From: a virus
Direction: 5' to 3' (one strand)
IMG/VR virus record: IMGVR_UViG_3300021083_000095
Coordinates: 1-27,867 of that record
Length of the DNA stretch: 27,867 nucleotides
The position numbers and the translations under genes are program-made. Of this stretch, positions 2,760 through 8,526 are shown one piece after another; position 1 is the stretch's first letter; each line of letters begins with the position of its first letter. Under the pieces are notes generated by a model. That model was not told the DNA's origin. It did no database searches and saw only the letters and a program-made list of their open reading frames with translations.

Positions 2760-3505
2760 ATGCACCATTGCCAGCCGTTTCAACACAACCATTTTCAAAG
2801 TGGTTCCAGGTTCATCCGAGCCTTGGAATCTCGATGATGGATCACCTTTTCAACCGACTGGATGGCGCCTATCCGCACAAGTGGCGCTCGAACTTTCCGA
2901 ATCAGCAAGCGATCGACAATTGGTCCGAGAGCTGGGCGGAGGAGTTTGAGGATTCCGGAATCACGCCGAACGATATCAAAGCTGGGATCAAGGCATGCAG
3001 AACACGCTACGACTGGCCGCCAAGCTGTGCGGAGTTCATCAGGGCTTGCAAGCCTTCAGTGGACCATCTTGTGGCGTATTACGAGGCTGTAGCGGGCGTG
3101 CAGGCGCGCCAGACGGGGCAGATGGGTGTCTGGTCGCACCGAGCGATATTCTGGGCTGCAATGCCGCTTTCCTTTGATTTGGGGAGCCAAACCTATTCGC
3201 AGATCAAGGTCCGATGGGAGCGTGCGCTGGCAGAGCAGATGGATCGCGGCGAATGGCCTCCGATACCGCAGCCGATGATTGCATTGCCTGAGCCTGGCAA
3301 GACGCAGCTATCACGGGCGAAGGCTGCTGAGATGATTCAGGAAATTGGCGCAGGCAACGTCGTCAAGACATACGACGATCAGATGGATCACAAGTTGTGG
3401 GCCAAGCGGATTATGGAGCGCGATAAGGCCGGTGACAAGACGTTGAGCGCTTTGCAAGTGCGCTTTGCAAGAGATGCGCTGGAGACTAAGCAATGTCGGA
3501 CCTAA
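2756..3505 (+). CDS. Lambda P-like replication protein (probable DnaB helicase loader)
   Basis: A 249-residue protein starts at the ATG that overlaps the DUF1376 stop (ATGA). Residues about 20-100 resemble the lambda P helical core: FNRLDGAYPHKWRSNFPN, then WAEEFEDSGITPNDIKAGI, then a YDWPPSCAEF segment matching the 'WPPSxxEF' signature of phage replication P proteins. The length is near lambda P (233). Such proteins bind host DnaB and load it at the phage origin with the initiator. The order initiator-with-repeats then loader repeats the lambda O-P layout. The C-terminal third is charged and helical. The family call is good; partner proteins are inferred. Confidence 0.75.
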   Translation: MNAPLPAVSTQPFSKWFQVHPSLGISMMDHLFNRLDGAYPHKWRSNFPNQQAIDNWSESWAEEFEDSGITPNDIKAGIKACRTRYDWPPSCAEFIRACKPSVDHLVAYYEAVAGVQARQTGQMGVWSHRAIFWAAMPLSFDLGSQTYSQIKVRWERALAEQMDRGEWPPIPQPMIALPEPGKTQLSRAKAAEMIQEIGAGNVVKTYDDQMDHKLWAKRIMERDKAGDKTLSALQVRFARDALETKQCRT

Positions 3506-3531
3506 CTTTAACTGAAAAAGGGAGATTGATT

Positions 3532-4077
3532 ATGGAATTTACTGCATTTCAAAAACTTCCGCGACTGTCGCGTGAAGTGATTATTACTGAAAAAATTGAC
3601 GGAACGAATGCGTCAGTTTGCATCACAGAAGATGGACAATTCCTTGTTGGTAGCAGAACGCGGTGGATTACACCAGAGAACGATAATCATGGATTCGCTG
3701 CGTGGGCATACTCCAACAAAGAAGAATTAATGAAACTCGGAGTTGGACACCACTTCGGGGAATGGTGGGGAACGGGAATACAACGCCGGTATGGAATCGC
3801 TGATAAAAGATTCAGCCTGTTCAATACTGCTCGCTGGTCAGATCCTGAAACAAGGCCTGCATGCTGTGATGTTGTGCCAGTACTTGCTGCTGGCGTTTTT
3901 AGCTCGCCAATGATTGAGGCGCAAATCCTGAGATTACAAGCCGATGGCAGTGTTGCGGCACCTGGTTTTATGAATCCAGAGGGCATTGTTATTTATCATA
4001 CTGCGGCAGGAATATCCTTCAAAAAGACGATTGATAAAGACGAAATTCCGAAGTCTTTAGCTATCGTTGGAAAGTAA
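3532..4077 (+). CDS. Small RNA ligase-family nucleotidyltransferase
   Basis: The 181-residue protein shows the ordered motifs of the covalent nucleotidyltransferase superfamily as in RNA ligases: motif I EKIDG at 20-24 with K21 as the AMP-accepting lysine, FGEWWG at 75-80 (motif III region), EGIVIY at 150-155 (motif IV) and FKKTI at 163-167 (motif V). It has only the catalytic domain. The start at 3532 follows GGGAGA with good spacing and gives the usual family N-terminus; an upstream ATG at 3493 would add 13 residues and overlap the loader gene. Such enzymes seal RNA nicks, and phage versions can repair tRNA cut by host defences. No kinase or phosphatase partner and no tRNA is seen nearby, so its substrate is open. 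Confidence 0.85.
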   Translation: MEFTAFQKLPRLSREVIITEKIDGTNASVCITEDGQFLVGSRTRWITPENDNHGFAAWAYSNKEELMKLGVGHHFGEWWGTGIQRRYGIADKRFSLFNTARWSDPETRPACCDVVPVLAAGVFSSPMIEAQILRLQADGSVAAPGFMNPEGIVIYHTAAGISFKKTIDKDEIPKSLAIVGK

Positions 4078-4117: not shown

Positions 4118-4243
4118 ATGAATACCGAAACGCTAGGATGGATTATATTGGTGGTCTTTTGCCTGGGCCTGATTTGGCTTGGCATCAAGGAATTTGATAG
4201 ATGGTTAGATGAATTTATGGATTGGGATGAAAAATGCAAATAA
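4118..4243 (+). CDS. Small membrane protein
   Basis: A 41-residue frame has a hydrophobic helix at about residues 7-23 (GWIILVVFCLGLIWLG) followed by an acidic tail rich in Asp, Glu and Trp. It begins 40 bases after the ligase gene and overlaps the start of the GroES-like gene by ten bases. The ribosome-binding site is weak (a G-rich stretch at 4108-4113). A one-helix inner-membrane protein is likely; no function is recognised. Confidence 0.45.
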   Translation: MNTETLGWIILVVFCLGLIWLGIKEFDRWLDEFMDWDEKCK

Positions 4244-4683
4244 AACCAACGAATGACCTATTGCTGATTCGGCGAATAGTTGCGGATCAGCCGAAAACAG
4301 CATCAGGAATACTGTTGCCGCCAGTTGAGGAATCGGCTGATACGCCGTATCGAGGCGTAGTGGTAGCCGCTGGACCTGGGAAGCCAGCAAAAGCATCTCA
4401 GGCTGCACAAGAGGTAATCGATGCTTTACAGTCGCTCGTTGATGCTTATCATGGCATGCCGAACATAAACTGGCCACAGCGCGGTATCGGGTTGGCGACG
4501 TGGCAGCGCGCGATTGATGCGCTGAAATCGCACAATGCAACGTCTGCACGATTGCCGATGCAAGTCAATGTCGGCGATACCGTTGTTTTTTCAAAAAATG
4601 GTTATCAGGAATTTAAAGTCGATGGGGAAACATTGATCGCACTCGGTGAAGCTTCTTGCTTGGGCGTTGTTGAAAGTCTATAA
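4234..4683 (+). CDS. GroES-like co-chaperonin with an inserted segment
   Basis: The two ends of this 149-residue protein match Hsp10/GroES. Residues 1-50 hold the first barrel strands, a mobile-loop-like segment (KTASGILLPP at 21-30) and the GVVVAAGPGK strand at 41-50. Residues about 108-149 match the closing half, with VNVGDTVVFSKNGYQEFKVD. Between them, residues about 53-107 form an unrelated, mainly helical insert not present in the roughly 97-residue GroES. The Gly-Ile-Leu-Leu of the mobile loop is the site that contacts GroEL in known proteins such as T4 gp31, so a role in folding phage proteins with host GroEL is likely. Some phages carry such proteins to fold their coat. The effect of the insert is unknown. 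Confidence 0.85.
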   Translation: MQIKPTNDLLLIRRIVADQPKTASGILLPPVEESADTPYRGVVVAAGPGKPAKASQAAQEVIDALQSLVDAYHGMPNINWPQRGIGLATWQRAIDALKSHNATSARLPMQVNVGDTVVFSKNGYQEFKVDGETLIALGEASCLGVVESL

Positions 4684-5725: not shown

Positions 5726-5753
5726 TTGACAAACATATATTAATAGATAAAAT
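5726..5753 (+). promoter_or_regulatory. Sigma70-like promoter
   Basis: A perfect -35 hexamer TTGACA at 5726-5731 is followed after 16 bases by TAAAAT at 5748-5753, in an AT-rich stretch unlike its surroundings. It lies just after the early operon ends and 45 bases before the small basic gene at 5799, so it would drive that gene and the structured region behind it. Confidence 0.7.
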
Positions 5754-5798: not shown

Positions 5799-5960
5799 AT
5801 GAAAAAAGATACGAAAATGGCTCACAAGCAGTCGAGTGTGATTAAACCGGGAACTGGTAGCGGTTCGCGGCCGATGGGCGGCAGCACCAAAACCCCGGTG
5901 TCGGCGCCGGAAGACAAAAAGACGATGGGCCGCGTCGGCAATGCCAAGGTTTTGAAGTAA
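5799..5960 (+). CDS. Small basic, disordered protein
   Basis: A 53-residue protein rich in Lys, Gly, Ser, Thr and Pro, with no predicted hydrophobic core, contains VIKPGTGSGSRPMGG and ends in GRVGNAKVLK. The ATG at 5799 follows GCGAGGG closely; an in-frame TTG at 5769 is less likely. It sits directly behind a strong promoter and ahead of a long structured non-coding stretch. Its composition fits a nucleic-acid-binding or assembly peptide, but this is a guess. No family is recognised. Confidence 0.55.
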   Translation: MKKDTKMAHKQSSVIKPGTGSGSRPMGGSTKTPVSAPEDKKTMGRVGNAKVLK

Positions 5961-6260
5961 TCATTTCCGGTGGATCGAGAGATCTACCGTCTGCACGATA
6001 CCGGGTAACGGTCACCCCGGCAGGCCACAGCGCAATGGTCGCATCATGCAGACGATAGGATTCTCACCCAGCGGCCGTAGAAGGCGCAATAAGGGATGCC
6101 CCCCGTTAGGGGGCTGAAACAGTTGATGGTTCTGCGGCACGTAATCGGATATCCGAGGATGCTGCGATAATAACGATGTGGCAACTGGCTAGGGCCAGTG
6201 GTGCGGTCGTTATGGTACGTAAAATTGCCTGGACGCAGGATGCGAGGGACCATCATTCAT
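5961..6260 (+). ncRNA. Candidate structured non-coding RNA (about 300 nt)
   Basis: No convincing gene lies here, but the bases fold into nested helices. The 5' part has a 9-bp hairpin, 5968-5976 with 5981-5989, capped by a GAGA (GNRA) tetraloop. A stem of 8 bp, 5988-5995 with 6047-6054, encloses two hairpins (6001-6005 with 6016-6020; 6023-6027 with 6036-6040). A 6-bp GC hairpin lies at 6098-6114. The 3' domain is closed by 6124-6130 with 6249-6255. It continues with 6132-6136/6234-6238 and 6139-6143/6216-6220, and contains 6170-6176/6207-6213 around hairpin 6184-6199. Two of the helices use G-U pairs that work only in plus-strand RNA. A promoter precedes it and a terminator follows. No Rfam family is recognised from memory. 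Confidence 0.55.
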
Positions 6261-6299
6261 AAAAACGCCCCGGCAGCGTGAACTACCGAGGCGTGTTTT
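6261..6299. terminator. Bidirectional rho-independent terminator
   Basis: An inverted repeat pairs ACGCC-CGG with CCG-GGCGT around a central loop, flanked by AAAAA on the left and TTTT on the right. It can therefore stop transcription from both sides. It separates the rightward small gene and structured RNA from the leftward cassette that ends at 6312, which is where converging units need one. Confidence 0.8.
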
Positions 6300-6311: not shown

Positions 6312-6512
6312 TCAAATTTCAATCGGTGGCAGATTATCCTTGAGGGTTTCATGCGTTCCGCCTGCTGACGTGTACAGATCATCCTGTAAACGTTCTGCCA
6401 GCGATTTCAGCGATTTGATGACGTTCTCCGGAGCGCCATCCTTTCGTACTGCGTCAAGCCTGAAATCGACGCACTCCTTGATTATTGCAATTTCTGCATT
6501 ACTGATTTCCAT
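6312..6512 (-). CDS. Small helical hypothetical protein
   Basis: The leftward frame gives a 66-residue, mostly helical and charged protein (MEISNAEIAIIKECVDFRL, then ENVIKSLKSLAERLQDDLY). The chosen ATG at 6512 has GGAG six bases upstream; in-frame ATGs at 6527 and 6518 are possible but lack that spacing. It overlaps the end of the Xre-type gene by 14 bases, so the two are probably coupled. It is the last gene before the bidirectional terminator. No family is recognised. As the partner of a regulator it could modulate it, but this is speculation. Confidence 0.55.
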   Translation of the reverse strand: MEISNAEIAIIKECVDFRLDAVRKDGAPENVIKSLKSLAERLQDDLYTSAGGTHETLKDNLPPIEI

Positions 6513-6765
6513 TTTCATCTCCATCATTTTCGGGATCCGCCGCACCAGTTTTAGCAAGACGCTCAATTTTGATTTTGAAAAGCTCCCACAGGCCGGGGTG
6601 CATCCGCGCCGTGCCAGCCTCCCACTCCTGCCAGCGGCGGACGCCTGAGTGTACAATAGAGGCGGCAGCGGTTTGAGTGATGCCAGCGGTCCGACGGGTT
6701 GTTCGGATATCGGCCGGGTCGGGATTTGATTGCGGCCCTCGTGGGCCACGGTTGGGGTGGTTCAT
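6499..6765 (-). CDS. Xre-type helix-turn-helix regulator
   Basis: An 88-residue protein with a helix-turn-helix at about residues 18-52: DIRTTRRTAGITQTAAASIV, then RRWQEWEAGTARMHPGLWEL. This pattern, with the conserved Trp-Glu-x-Gly after the recognition helix, is typical of phage and YdaS/Xre-like DNA-binding proteins. The first 15 residues are Pro/Asn/Gly-rich, and the DNA encoding them is duplicated near 7525-7569. The start lies two bases after the stop of the upstream gene, so it is probably translated by coupling. It likely represses or activates a promoter in this cassette. The palindrome at 7181-7195 is the obvious candidate operator, not shown. Confidence 0.75.
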   Translation of the reverse strand: MNHPNRGPRGPQSNPDPADIRTTRRTAGITQTAAASIVHSGVRRWQEWEAGTARMHPGLWELFKIKIERLAKTGAADPENDGDENGNQ

Positions 6766-6778
6766 TTTTATCTGTCCA
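6734..6778. repeat. 45-bp repeat, copy 1 (start region of the Xre-type gene)
   Basis: This copy matches 7525-7569 with only two differences, both in the loop of a hairpin. It covers the leftward start codon and first codons of the Xre-type gene plus about 13 bases before them. On the minus strand the first part forms GGCCC-ACGA-GGGCC just after the start codon. Confidence 0.85.
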
Positions 6779-7118
6779 TTATTTCATCGATGCGCTCATA
6801 GTCCCCATTTTGTACTGCTTCGGCGAGATCGGCGGGCGCTTCGTCGTCGTTAAAAAATACATGATCAATGTAATTTGGCTCTGCCGCGTCCCATGCCGCA
6901 CGCTCATCATGCAGCTTGCGCATGACGCAGTTAGCTGCGGCGCGATGAGTGCCATTTAGCAGGTTGCCGCTGCCCTCTTGACCGTCAATTAGGATCGCGG
7001 GGATCGCATCGCCACGGCGTGCGGAGCGGATCAGGGAGCGCACTTTAGACCAGTCGCGGACTTCGTGGATCGGATTAGCCCCGGCCCACGAAGGGTAAAA
7101 ATTTTGATCTAGCGCCAT
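6768..7118 (-). CDS. ParB-like small protein (tentative)
   Basis: A 116-residue leftward protein with a central PAILIDGQEGSGNLLNGTHR segment followed by AAANCVMRKLHDE. The 'NGTHRAAA' core resembles the box II region of ParB/sulfiredoxin-fold proteins (GxxRxxA), in which a nucleotide or phosphate is bound. The rest is acidic and Trp-containing. The start at 7118 has GGAG six bases upstream and lies about 60 bases behind a strong leftward promoter with a palindrome in its spacer. It is the first gene of a three-gene unit ending at 6312. The fold suggestion is moderate; no function is known to me. Confidence 0.6.
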   Translation of the reverse strand: MALDQNFYPSWAGANPIHEVRDWSKVRSLIRSARRGDAIPAILIDGQEGSGNLLNGTHRAAANCVMRKLHDERAAWDAAEPNYIDHVFFNDDEAPADLAEAVQNGDYERIDEIMDR

Positions 7119-7210: not shown

Positions 7211-7238
7211 TTGAATTATTTTTGGAATGGTTTATAAT
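7211..7238 (+). promoter_or_regulatory. Rightward promoter facing away from the leftward promoter
   Basis: TTGAAT at 7211-7216 and a perfect TATAAT at 7233-7238 are separated by 16 bases. Its -35 is only seven bases from the -35 of the leftward promoter, giving a back-to-back pair as in a phage switch. Transcription would start near 7245, almost on the ATG at 7246, and run antisense to the gene at 7309-7500. Confidence 0.55.
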
Positions 7239-7517: not shown

Positions 7518-7556
7518 TTAGAATGGCCCTTGCGGGCCACGGTTGGGGTGGTTCAT
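7518..7556 (-). CDS. 12-residue mini-frame, truncated copy of the Xre gene start
   Basis: Copy 2 of the 45-bp repeat creates a leftward frame reading MNHPNRGPQGPF and then a stop. It repeats the first residues of the Xre-type protein (MNHPNRGPRGP). It sits between the genes at 7587 and 7309. It may be a leader peptide or simply a leftover of duplication. No independent evidence of translation. Confidence 0.3.
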   Translation of the reverse strand: MNHPNRGPQGPF

Positions 7557-7569
7557 TTTTATCTGTCCA
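7525..7569. repeat. 45-bp repeat, copy 2
   Basis: This is a direct copy of 6734-6778, 791 bases away. The 36-base part at 7534-7569 is identical. The two differences fall in the loop of the hairpin, whose stem is intact in both. On the minus strand the hairpin is GGCCC-GCAA-GGGCC, with a GNRA loop, directly after a start codon. Confidence 0.85.
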
Positions 7570-7586
7570 CTATTTTTATTATTTGA

Positions 7587-7980: not shown

Positions 7981-8526
7981 ATGGGAAATACAGCACACCT
8001 CACCGATAAGCAAGAGGCTTTTTGCGTTGAATACTTGCGCAATGGCATGGACGCGAGCGCGGCCTATCGATCTGTGTACAAGTCAAAAATGAATTCCGCA
8101 TCCGTTGGTGTAAATGCATCGAAGTTACTTAATGGTACTAAAGTTGCACTAAGGATACGTGAATTGCTTGCGCCAGCGCTGAAAAAAAACGAAATCACGG
8201 TAGAGCGTATTGCAGCAGAGTATGCAAAGCTCGCTTTCCTTGACCCGCGCAAGTTTTTCGACGCGGCTGGCGCACTGATACCAGTCCACAAGCTCGATGC
8301 AGACACGGCGGCAGCTCTGGGCGGCATGGACGTGGCTATGGAGCGCGACGGAGAGGATGAGGACGGCAAGCCGCTATACTCGCCAGTGCGAAAGATCAAG
8401 ATGATCGACAAGAAGGGCGCGTTGGACAGCCTGGCGAAGTGGCAAAACATGTTTATCGAGCGCGTAGAGCATACCGGGACTGTTGAGGTGCACATTGTTG
8501 ACTACGCATCGATGCACAAAAAATAG
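7981..8526 (+). CDS. Terminase small subunit
   Basis: A 181-residue protein matching the Terminase_2 family. The N-terminal DNA-binding part reads HLTDKQEAFCVEYLRNGMD, then ASAAYRSVYKS, then a helix through about residue 60 (VALRIRELL). A central segment, EYAKLAFLDPRKFFDAAG at about 82-99, is typical of the oligomerising core. It recognises the packaging start site and hands DNA to the large subunit, whose gene follows after one small gene. Packaging sites of P22-like phages lie within the small-subunit gene, but I cannot point to one here. No clear rightward promoter is seen upstream, so late transcription may arrive by read-through. Confidence 0.9.
   Translation: MGNTAHLTDKQEAFCVEYLRNGMDASAAYRSVYKSKMNSASVGVNASKLLNGTKVALRIRELLAPALKKNEITVERIAAEYAKLAFLDPRKFFDAAGALIPVHKLDADTAAALGGMDVAMERDGEDEDGKPLYSPVRKIKMIDKKGALDSLAKWQNMFIERVEHTGTVEVHIVDYASMHKK

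Follow-up and report, generated by a model that had tools for sequence, protein, structure and literature searches.

A stretch of about 300 bases in a phage genome (positions 5961-6260) raises the question of whether the DNA between a small gene and a terminator-like stem specifies a conserved RNA, how much of the stretch belongs to it, and what such an RNA might do. The DNA analysed, called the window below, is the whole source record, 27,867 bases of phage DNA. The window phage encodes P22-type portal and coat proteins, as well as NinG and a lambda P-like replication protein, and its terminase genes start at 7981 and 8691. A preliminary description had seen in the stretch a possible new phage non-coding RNA, built of nested stems and framed by a promoter at 5726 and a terminator at 6261. 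The transcription unit is laid out as follows.

5726-5753, plus strand: sigma-70-like promoter (TTGACA-16-TAAAAT, 11/12 by consensus scan), ahead of both the small ORF and the RNA.
5799-5960, plus strand: small ORF of 53 amino acids, used as the locus marker in related phages.
5961-6260: RNA-bearing stretch, between the small ORF and the terminator stem.
6265-6294, no strand assigned: bidirectional terminator stem, which separates the plus-strand unit from the minus-strand genes at 6312-7118.

The promoter was found where it had been placed, and in L002, L003, L005, L007 and L094 a TTGACx-type -35 box can be seen by eye in the corresponding position ahead of the small ORF. As to the terminator, the stem is present and the related phage L006 has a related stem with a plus-strand GTTTTT tail, but the scan scored the window stem as a terminator on the minus strand only, because its plus-strand tail reads GTTTTA. 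Seven further IMG/VR contigs carry relatives of the small ORF, six of them at 54-68% identity; the ORF had no match in Pfam or PHROG, and none in the genome contigs and phage sequences searched. Elsewhere in the window we noted a phage-encoded GroES-like co-chaperonin (4234-4683, plus strand; Cpn10, PF00166, E 1.1e-15), a small protein (6499-6765, minus strand) that weakly resembles the MqsA antitoxin and HTH_31, both below cut-off, and a direct repeat of ∼40 bases around GGGCCACGGTTGGGGTGGTTCATTTTTATCTGTCCATTATTT (6741-6790 and 7534-7580), identified from the sequence and the terminator scan. An RNA ligase (3493-4077, plus strand; PF09414) was considered as a partner gene and rejected, being present in the window alone among 27 related records.

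Within 5961-6260, all of the stems previously described could be read directly from the sequence, and the view that the region holds no credible gene was borne out, the longest ORF inside it being 70 codons long and on the minus strand. The stretch was without an Rfam match at the gathering threshold, in keeping with the earlier statement that no RNA class was known to match; permissive Rfam scans of the region returned nothing significant, no tRNA or tmRNA was recognised in it by ARAGORN or Rfam (RF00005), and phage and plasmid sequences gave no blastn match to it. The folding energy of the stretch was moderately above chance on the plus strand (z -2.47, with 2 of 200 shuffles as good). The minus strand was as extreme or more so (z -3.56), and values near -4 were reached at several other sites in a scan of the window by 740 segments of 150 nt. 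Since the minus strand and other sites fold equally well, energy by itself shows neither an RNA nor its strand.

Homologues were more informative. L094, the seventh of the small-ORF relatives, carries a clear three-way-junction homologue after the ORF, in which the TAACGGTCAC loop and the CGATAG tail recur, and in the other six relatives nothing after the ORF resembled the window RNA, either by sequence or with covariance model R2. A pattern drawn from the window and L094 returned 58 stretches, and filtering these for stems left one further sequence, common to L103, L114, L146 and L152. These phages are of the same coat family (62% identical), and their copy of the RNA, which precedes the scaffold gene, begins ∼12 nt after a TATAAT box and is followed by a terminator-like stem. 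The family thus comprises three distinct sequences (window, L094, and the one shared by L103/L114/L146/L152). The L152 and L094 copies gave no blastn match among phages, and no family of Rfam 15 reached its gathering threshold on the L152 copy.

When the three sequences were aligned (A5), 96.7% of the cells paired, falling to 32-45% when the partner was slid by 1-3 columns, and 15 of the 31 pairs changed on both sides, compared with a mean of 5.3 in shuffled alignments (0 of 500 as high) and 0-2 in slid ones. A5 was fitted by hand, because MAFFT misaligned L152; it shortens L152 in P1 and P2, and leans towards the structure. As an independent check, a MAFFT alignment of the window and L094 gave 97.2% paired, against 28-44% when slid, and contained six double changes, an excess that is modest (21-29 of 500 shuffles as high) because the alignment has two rows. 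Model R2, which was trained on the shortened form of L152, found the native L152 sequence with 46 bits (E 6.6e-9 in 790 kb), and R1, built without L152, scored it at 20.7 bits (E 0.04). Compensatory changes, which the preliminary description had proposed to look for in homologues, are therefore present in 5980-6062, where they keep the fold across the three distinct sequences as in a conserved structured RNA. Judged from the alignments and from model R2, the homology of this core is clearly beyond chance. The proposal of a new phage non-coding RNA is supported by these changes and by the lack of a catalogued family, and on comparative grounds the case is made for roughly one third of the stretch, 5980-6062, the remainder being unproven.

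The alignment also bears on the strand. Across the three homologues, the plus strand contains 15 G.U against 2 A.C cells (5 A.C if the mismatch site described below is counted), and this excess appears to favour a plus-strand RNA. G-U pairs had previously been used to argue for the same strand; that argument does not hold for the window alone, where the minus strand folds equally well, but it does hold across the three homologues.

The core has the following parts.

5980-6062, plus strand: conserved RNA core, consisting of P1, a three-way junction, P2 and P3 (from homologues, covariation and model R2).
5980-5986/6056-6062 and 5988-5999/6043-6054, plus strand: outer and inner parts of P1.
5987, plus strand: C of a C.A mismatch inside P1 (partner A6055), invariant in all three distinct sequences.
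6001-6020, plus strand: P2 hairpin, with stem 6001-6005/6016-6020 and loop UAACGGUCAC at 6006-6015.
6023-6040, plus strand: P3 hairpin, with stem 6023-6027/6036-6040 and GCGCA within the loop.

P1 is ∼20 bp long in all homologues, and its inner part 12-13 bp. The three-way junction had been described as closed by 5988-5995/6047-6054; this stem is present, but the conserved RNA is wider, since P1 continues past the C5987.A6055 mismatch. The 10-nt loop of P2 is invariant across homologues and GCGCA in the P3 loop is common to all of them. The P2 loop resembles, minus one base, what we take to be a stretch of 16S rRNA helix 11; the chance rate of such a likeness was estimated to be of order 0.1, and it was not used. 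Because fold and loops are kept while the paired letters change in two other lineages, it seems to be the RNA itself that is preserved.

Outside the core, the stretch contains three further elements.

5968-5989, plus strand: GNRA hairpin (5968-5976/5981-5989, 9 bp with one G.U, loop GAGA), from sequence and fold.
6098-6114, plus strand: GC hairpin, from sequence and fold only.
6124-6255, plus strand: 3' domain, with closing stem 6124-6133/6246-6255 and nested stems inside.

The 9-bp GNRA hairpin is thus present as first described, but neither it nor 6098-6255 had a homologue among 489 loci (4.2 Mb). The segment 6121-6258 folds with z -3.93 on the plus strand and -4.31 on the minus strand, and identity of the 3' domain with the conserved element of L002-L004 was rejected, no match being found by the R3 model. 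What speaks for the 5' hairpin and for 6098-6255 is folding energy, and as RNA elements they are unproven. Bases 5980-5989 belong both to the GNRA hairpin (its 3' strand) and to outer P1 (its 5' strand), so only one of the two structures can form at a time, which may reflect a switch, or a weak outer stem in the window. A strong hairpin of unrelated sequence (L094:3177-3210) stands directly 5' of the L094 core, at the position of the window GNRA hairpin, and other hairpins lie 3' of the core in L152, suggesting that variable flanking hairpins may be typical.

The family appears to be rare. With R2, no further member was found in 48 TerL-related or known records, in 77 coat-related records, or, under strict filters, in ∼1,100 bacterial genomes (399 from the order of the Herbaspirillum G049, 398 from the phylum of G051 and 311 from the order of G052), once one coding-region match had been rejected (L488, 38.6 bits, inside a long ORF). 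Two further viral patterns yielded no new members, for one of them among the matches listed, and a genome pattern scan gave chance matches only, again among the matches listed. Two other candidates were set aside, L288 as a plain hairpin, and L275, from a further viral pattern, as it looks coding. This rarity is provisional, as many virus records are fragments, the genome scans were strictly filtered and two of the pattern scans refer to the matches listed.

The reading we prefer, to which we give a probability of roughly 0.45, is that the RNA is a self-contained, moron-like cargo acting in trans through its invariant loops. The unit would be carried as an independent transcription unit, with its own promoter and terminator and with variable neighbours; the helices would serve as a replaceable scaffold on which the UAACGGUCAC and GCGCA loops are displayed together with the C.A mismatch. 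Through these sites the phage RNA might modify or decoy a conserved partner in the host, whether RNA polymerase, an RNA-binding protein or a host RNA, the partner and the trans step being guesses. This is consistent with a fixed fold that covaries around invariant loops, with the recovery of native L152 by R2, and with the plus-strand G.U bias. The RNA also appears to have moved between sites: it follows the small ORF in the window and in L094, and precedes the scaffold gene in L114 and L152. In both the window and L152 a promoter precedes it and a terminator-like stem follows, and in L006, which would represent the RNA-less state of a moron locus, only ∼38 nt and no RNA separate the small ORF from the window-related terminator. 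The loop might instead have been antisense to the phage's own mRNA, but this was rejected, as no 10-nt antisense site for the P2 loop was found on the mRNA strand of its own phages, making a host partner likelier than a phage mRNA. Against the cargo reading, the family has three distinct sequences only, the L094 RNA has no promoter of its own directly before it and no terminator after it and lies ∼20 nt upstream of the next gene, and in the window the stable GNRA hairpin competes with outer P1.

The main rival, although an unlikely one, is antitermination in cis. The put RNAs suppress termination and pausing in cis through RNA polymerase, and by analogy the nascent RNA would bind the polymerase and cause read-through of the following terminator. 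The position fits in L152, where the RNA starts ∼12 nt after the TATAAT box and precedes the terminator-like stem and the scaffold and coat genes, and the window RNA also lies between promoter and terminator, much as the put RNAs, ∼70 nt long and phage-borne, are found directly behind early promoters (PMC9378689). The architecture does not fit: putL of HK022 forms a V of two stem-loops (PMC9378689), whereas the conserved fold, a three-way junction on a 20-bp stem, lacks the put layout of tandem stem-loops with no junction. Moreover, a polymerase reading through in the window would transcribe 6312-7118 in antisense, and the terminase genes are already preceded by a TATAAT promoter at 7211-7238. 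That the RNA is instead a self-cleaving ribozyme or another processing signal, trimming phage transcripts, we regard as improbable. Ribozymes typically keep unpaired letters invariant while their helices vary, and a hammerhead-like motif occurs at the same locus in L002, but there was no Rfam ribozyme match, no known catalytic core was recognised, and the hammerhead core CUGAUGA is absent from 5961-6260.

The remaining explanations involve the genes nearby or the DNA itself. A cis-regulatory leader, acting on the following gene by autoregulation or ligand sensing, might be expected from L094, where the RNA ends ∼20 nt before an ORF, and from its place upstream of the scaffold gene in L152, but it is quite improbable given that the window has no plus-strand gene before the terminator and that the following genes differ in the three phages. 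There is even less to suggest a pRNA- or pac-like genome-packaging element: the RNA has terminase genes nearby in the window, and scaffold and coat genes nearby in L152, but most close relatives that share the capsid genes lack it, many of those records being fragments. Least probable of all is a DNA-level element, such as a mobile palindrome or recombination site, which would explain why related phages carry a long inverted repeat at two genomic positions, but not the one-strand G.U bias of the pairing, the shared orientation behind promoters or the single copy per record.

In related phages, the site after the small ORF holds other structured elements. tRNA-Met (CAT) genes are located there in L004 (2576-2652) and L005 (672-745), and at a comparable position in L012 (119-192), and L003:2105-2181, inspected by eye, looks like a degenerate tRNA whose anticodon loop is of the Gly(TCC) type; neither ARAGORN nor Rfam recognised it. 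The hammerhead-like motif of L002 (5219-5264; core CUGAUGA, GAAA, GUC) matched HH9 with 32.9 bits (E 2e-4), which is under the gathering score of 52. L002 (5332-5410), L003 (2185-2314) and L004 (2663-2758) also share a hypervariable element with a 5-bp base, a G.G mismatch, and a replaced helix and apex, whose apical part (63-114 nt) is 40-46% identical while the adjoining 85 nt are 85-91% identical. Judged from a handful of phages, the site looks like one that gains, swaps and diversifies structured RNAs. A bolder and rather doubtful extension is that it is a hypervariable RNA cargo locus, at which related phages swap the three-way-junction RNA, tRNAs, the hammerhead-like motif and mismatch-bearing hairpins with replaced apices in an arms race with hosts or rival phages that is fought at the level of RNA.

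Like the HK022 put RNAs (putL and putR), the window RNA is a compact structured RNA, phage-borne, behind a promoter and ahead of terminators, but it forms a three-way junction on a long mismatched stem, and its loops are unrelated to theirs. GOLLD and ROOL are likewise ornate phage-associated RNAs, and tRNA genes occur at this locus in relatives; both are far larger, however, and they are in Rfam, which has no match to the window RNA. Phage and prophage small RNAs such as 24B_1 and PreS are also small, phage-encoded and may act on the host, but they do so by mRNA pairing (PMC12197685), whereas the window RNA has invariant exposed loops and no phage antisense site was found. Phage hammerhead ribozymes are structured elements of phage intergenic regions (PMC3088659), and one resembling them lies at this locus in L002, but their core is absent from the window RNA. 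The pid moron in the late region of P22 (PMC3573128) is an extra unit of a P22-type phage that varies between relatives, as here, but it is a protein gene, whereas the window unit carries a structured RNA.

The comparative evidence suggests a phage RNA family that is real and uncatalogued, new as a family but within a known kind of phage structured RNA. To our knowledge, few phage non-coding RNAs with complex folds have been described, and fewer still for which there are signs that the fold is under selection. Exposed loops that stay invariant while the helices change, as here, are what a conserved partner would be expected to leave, and seeking that partner is therefore a direct experiment. 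The locus also points to a little-explored class of phage cargo in which structured RNA takes the place of protein, and which annotation centred on genes overlooks.
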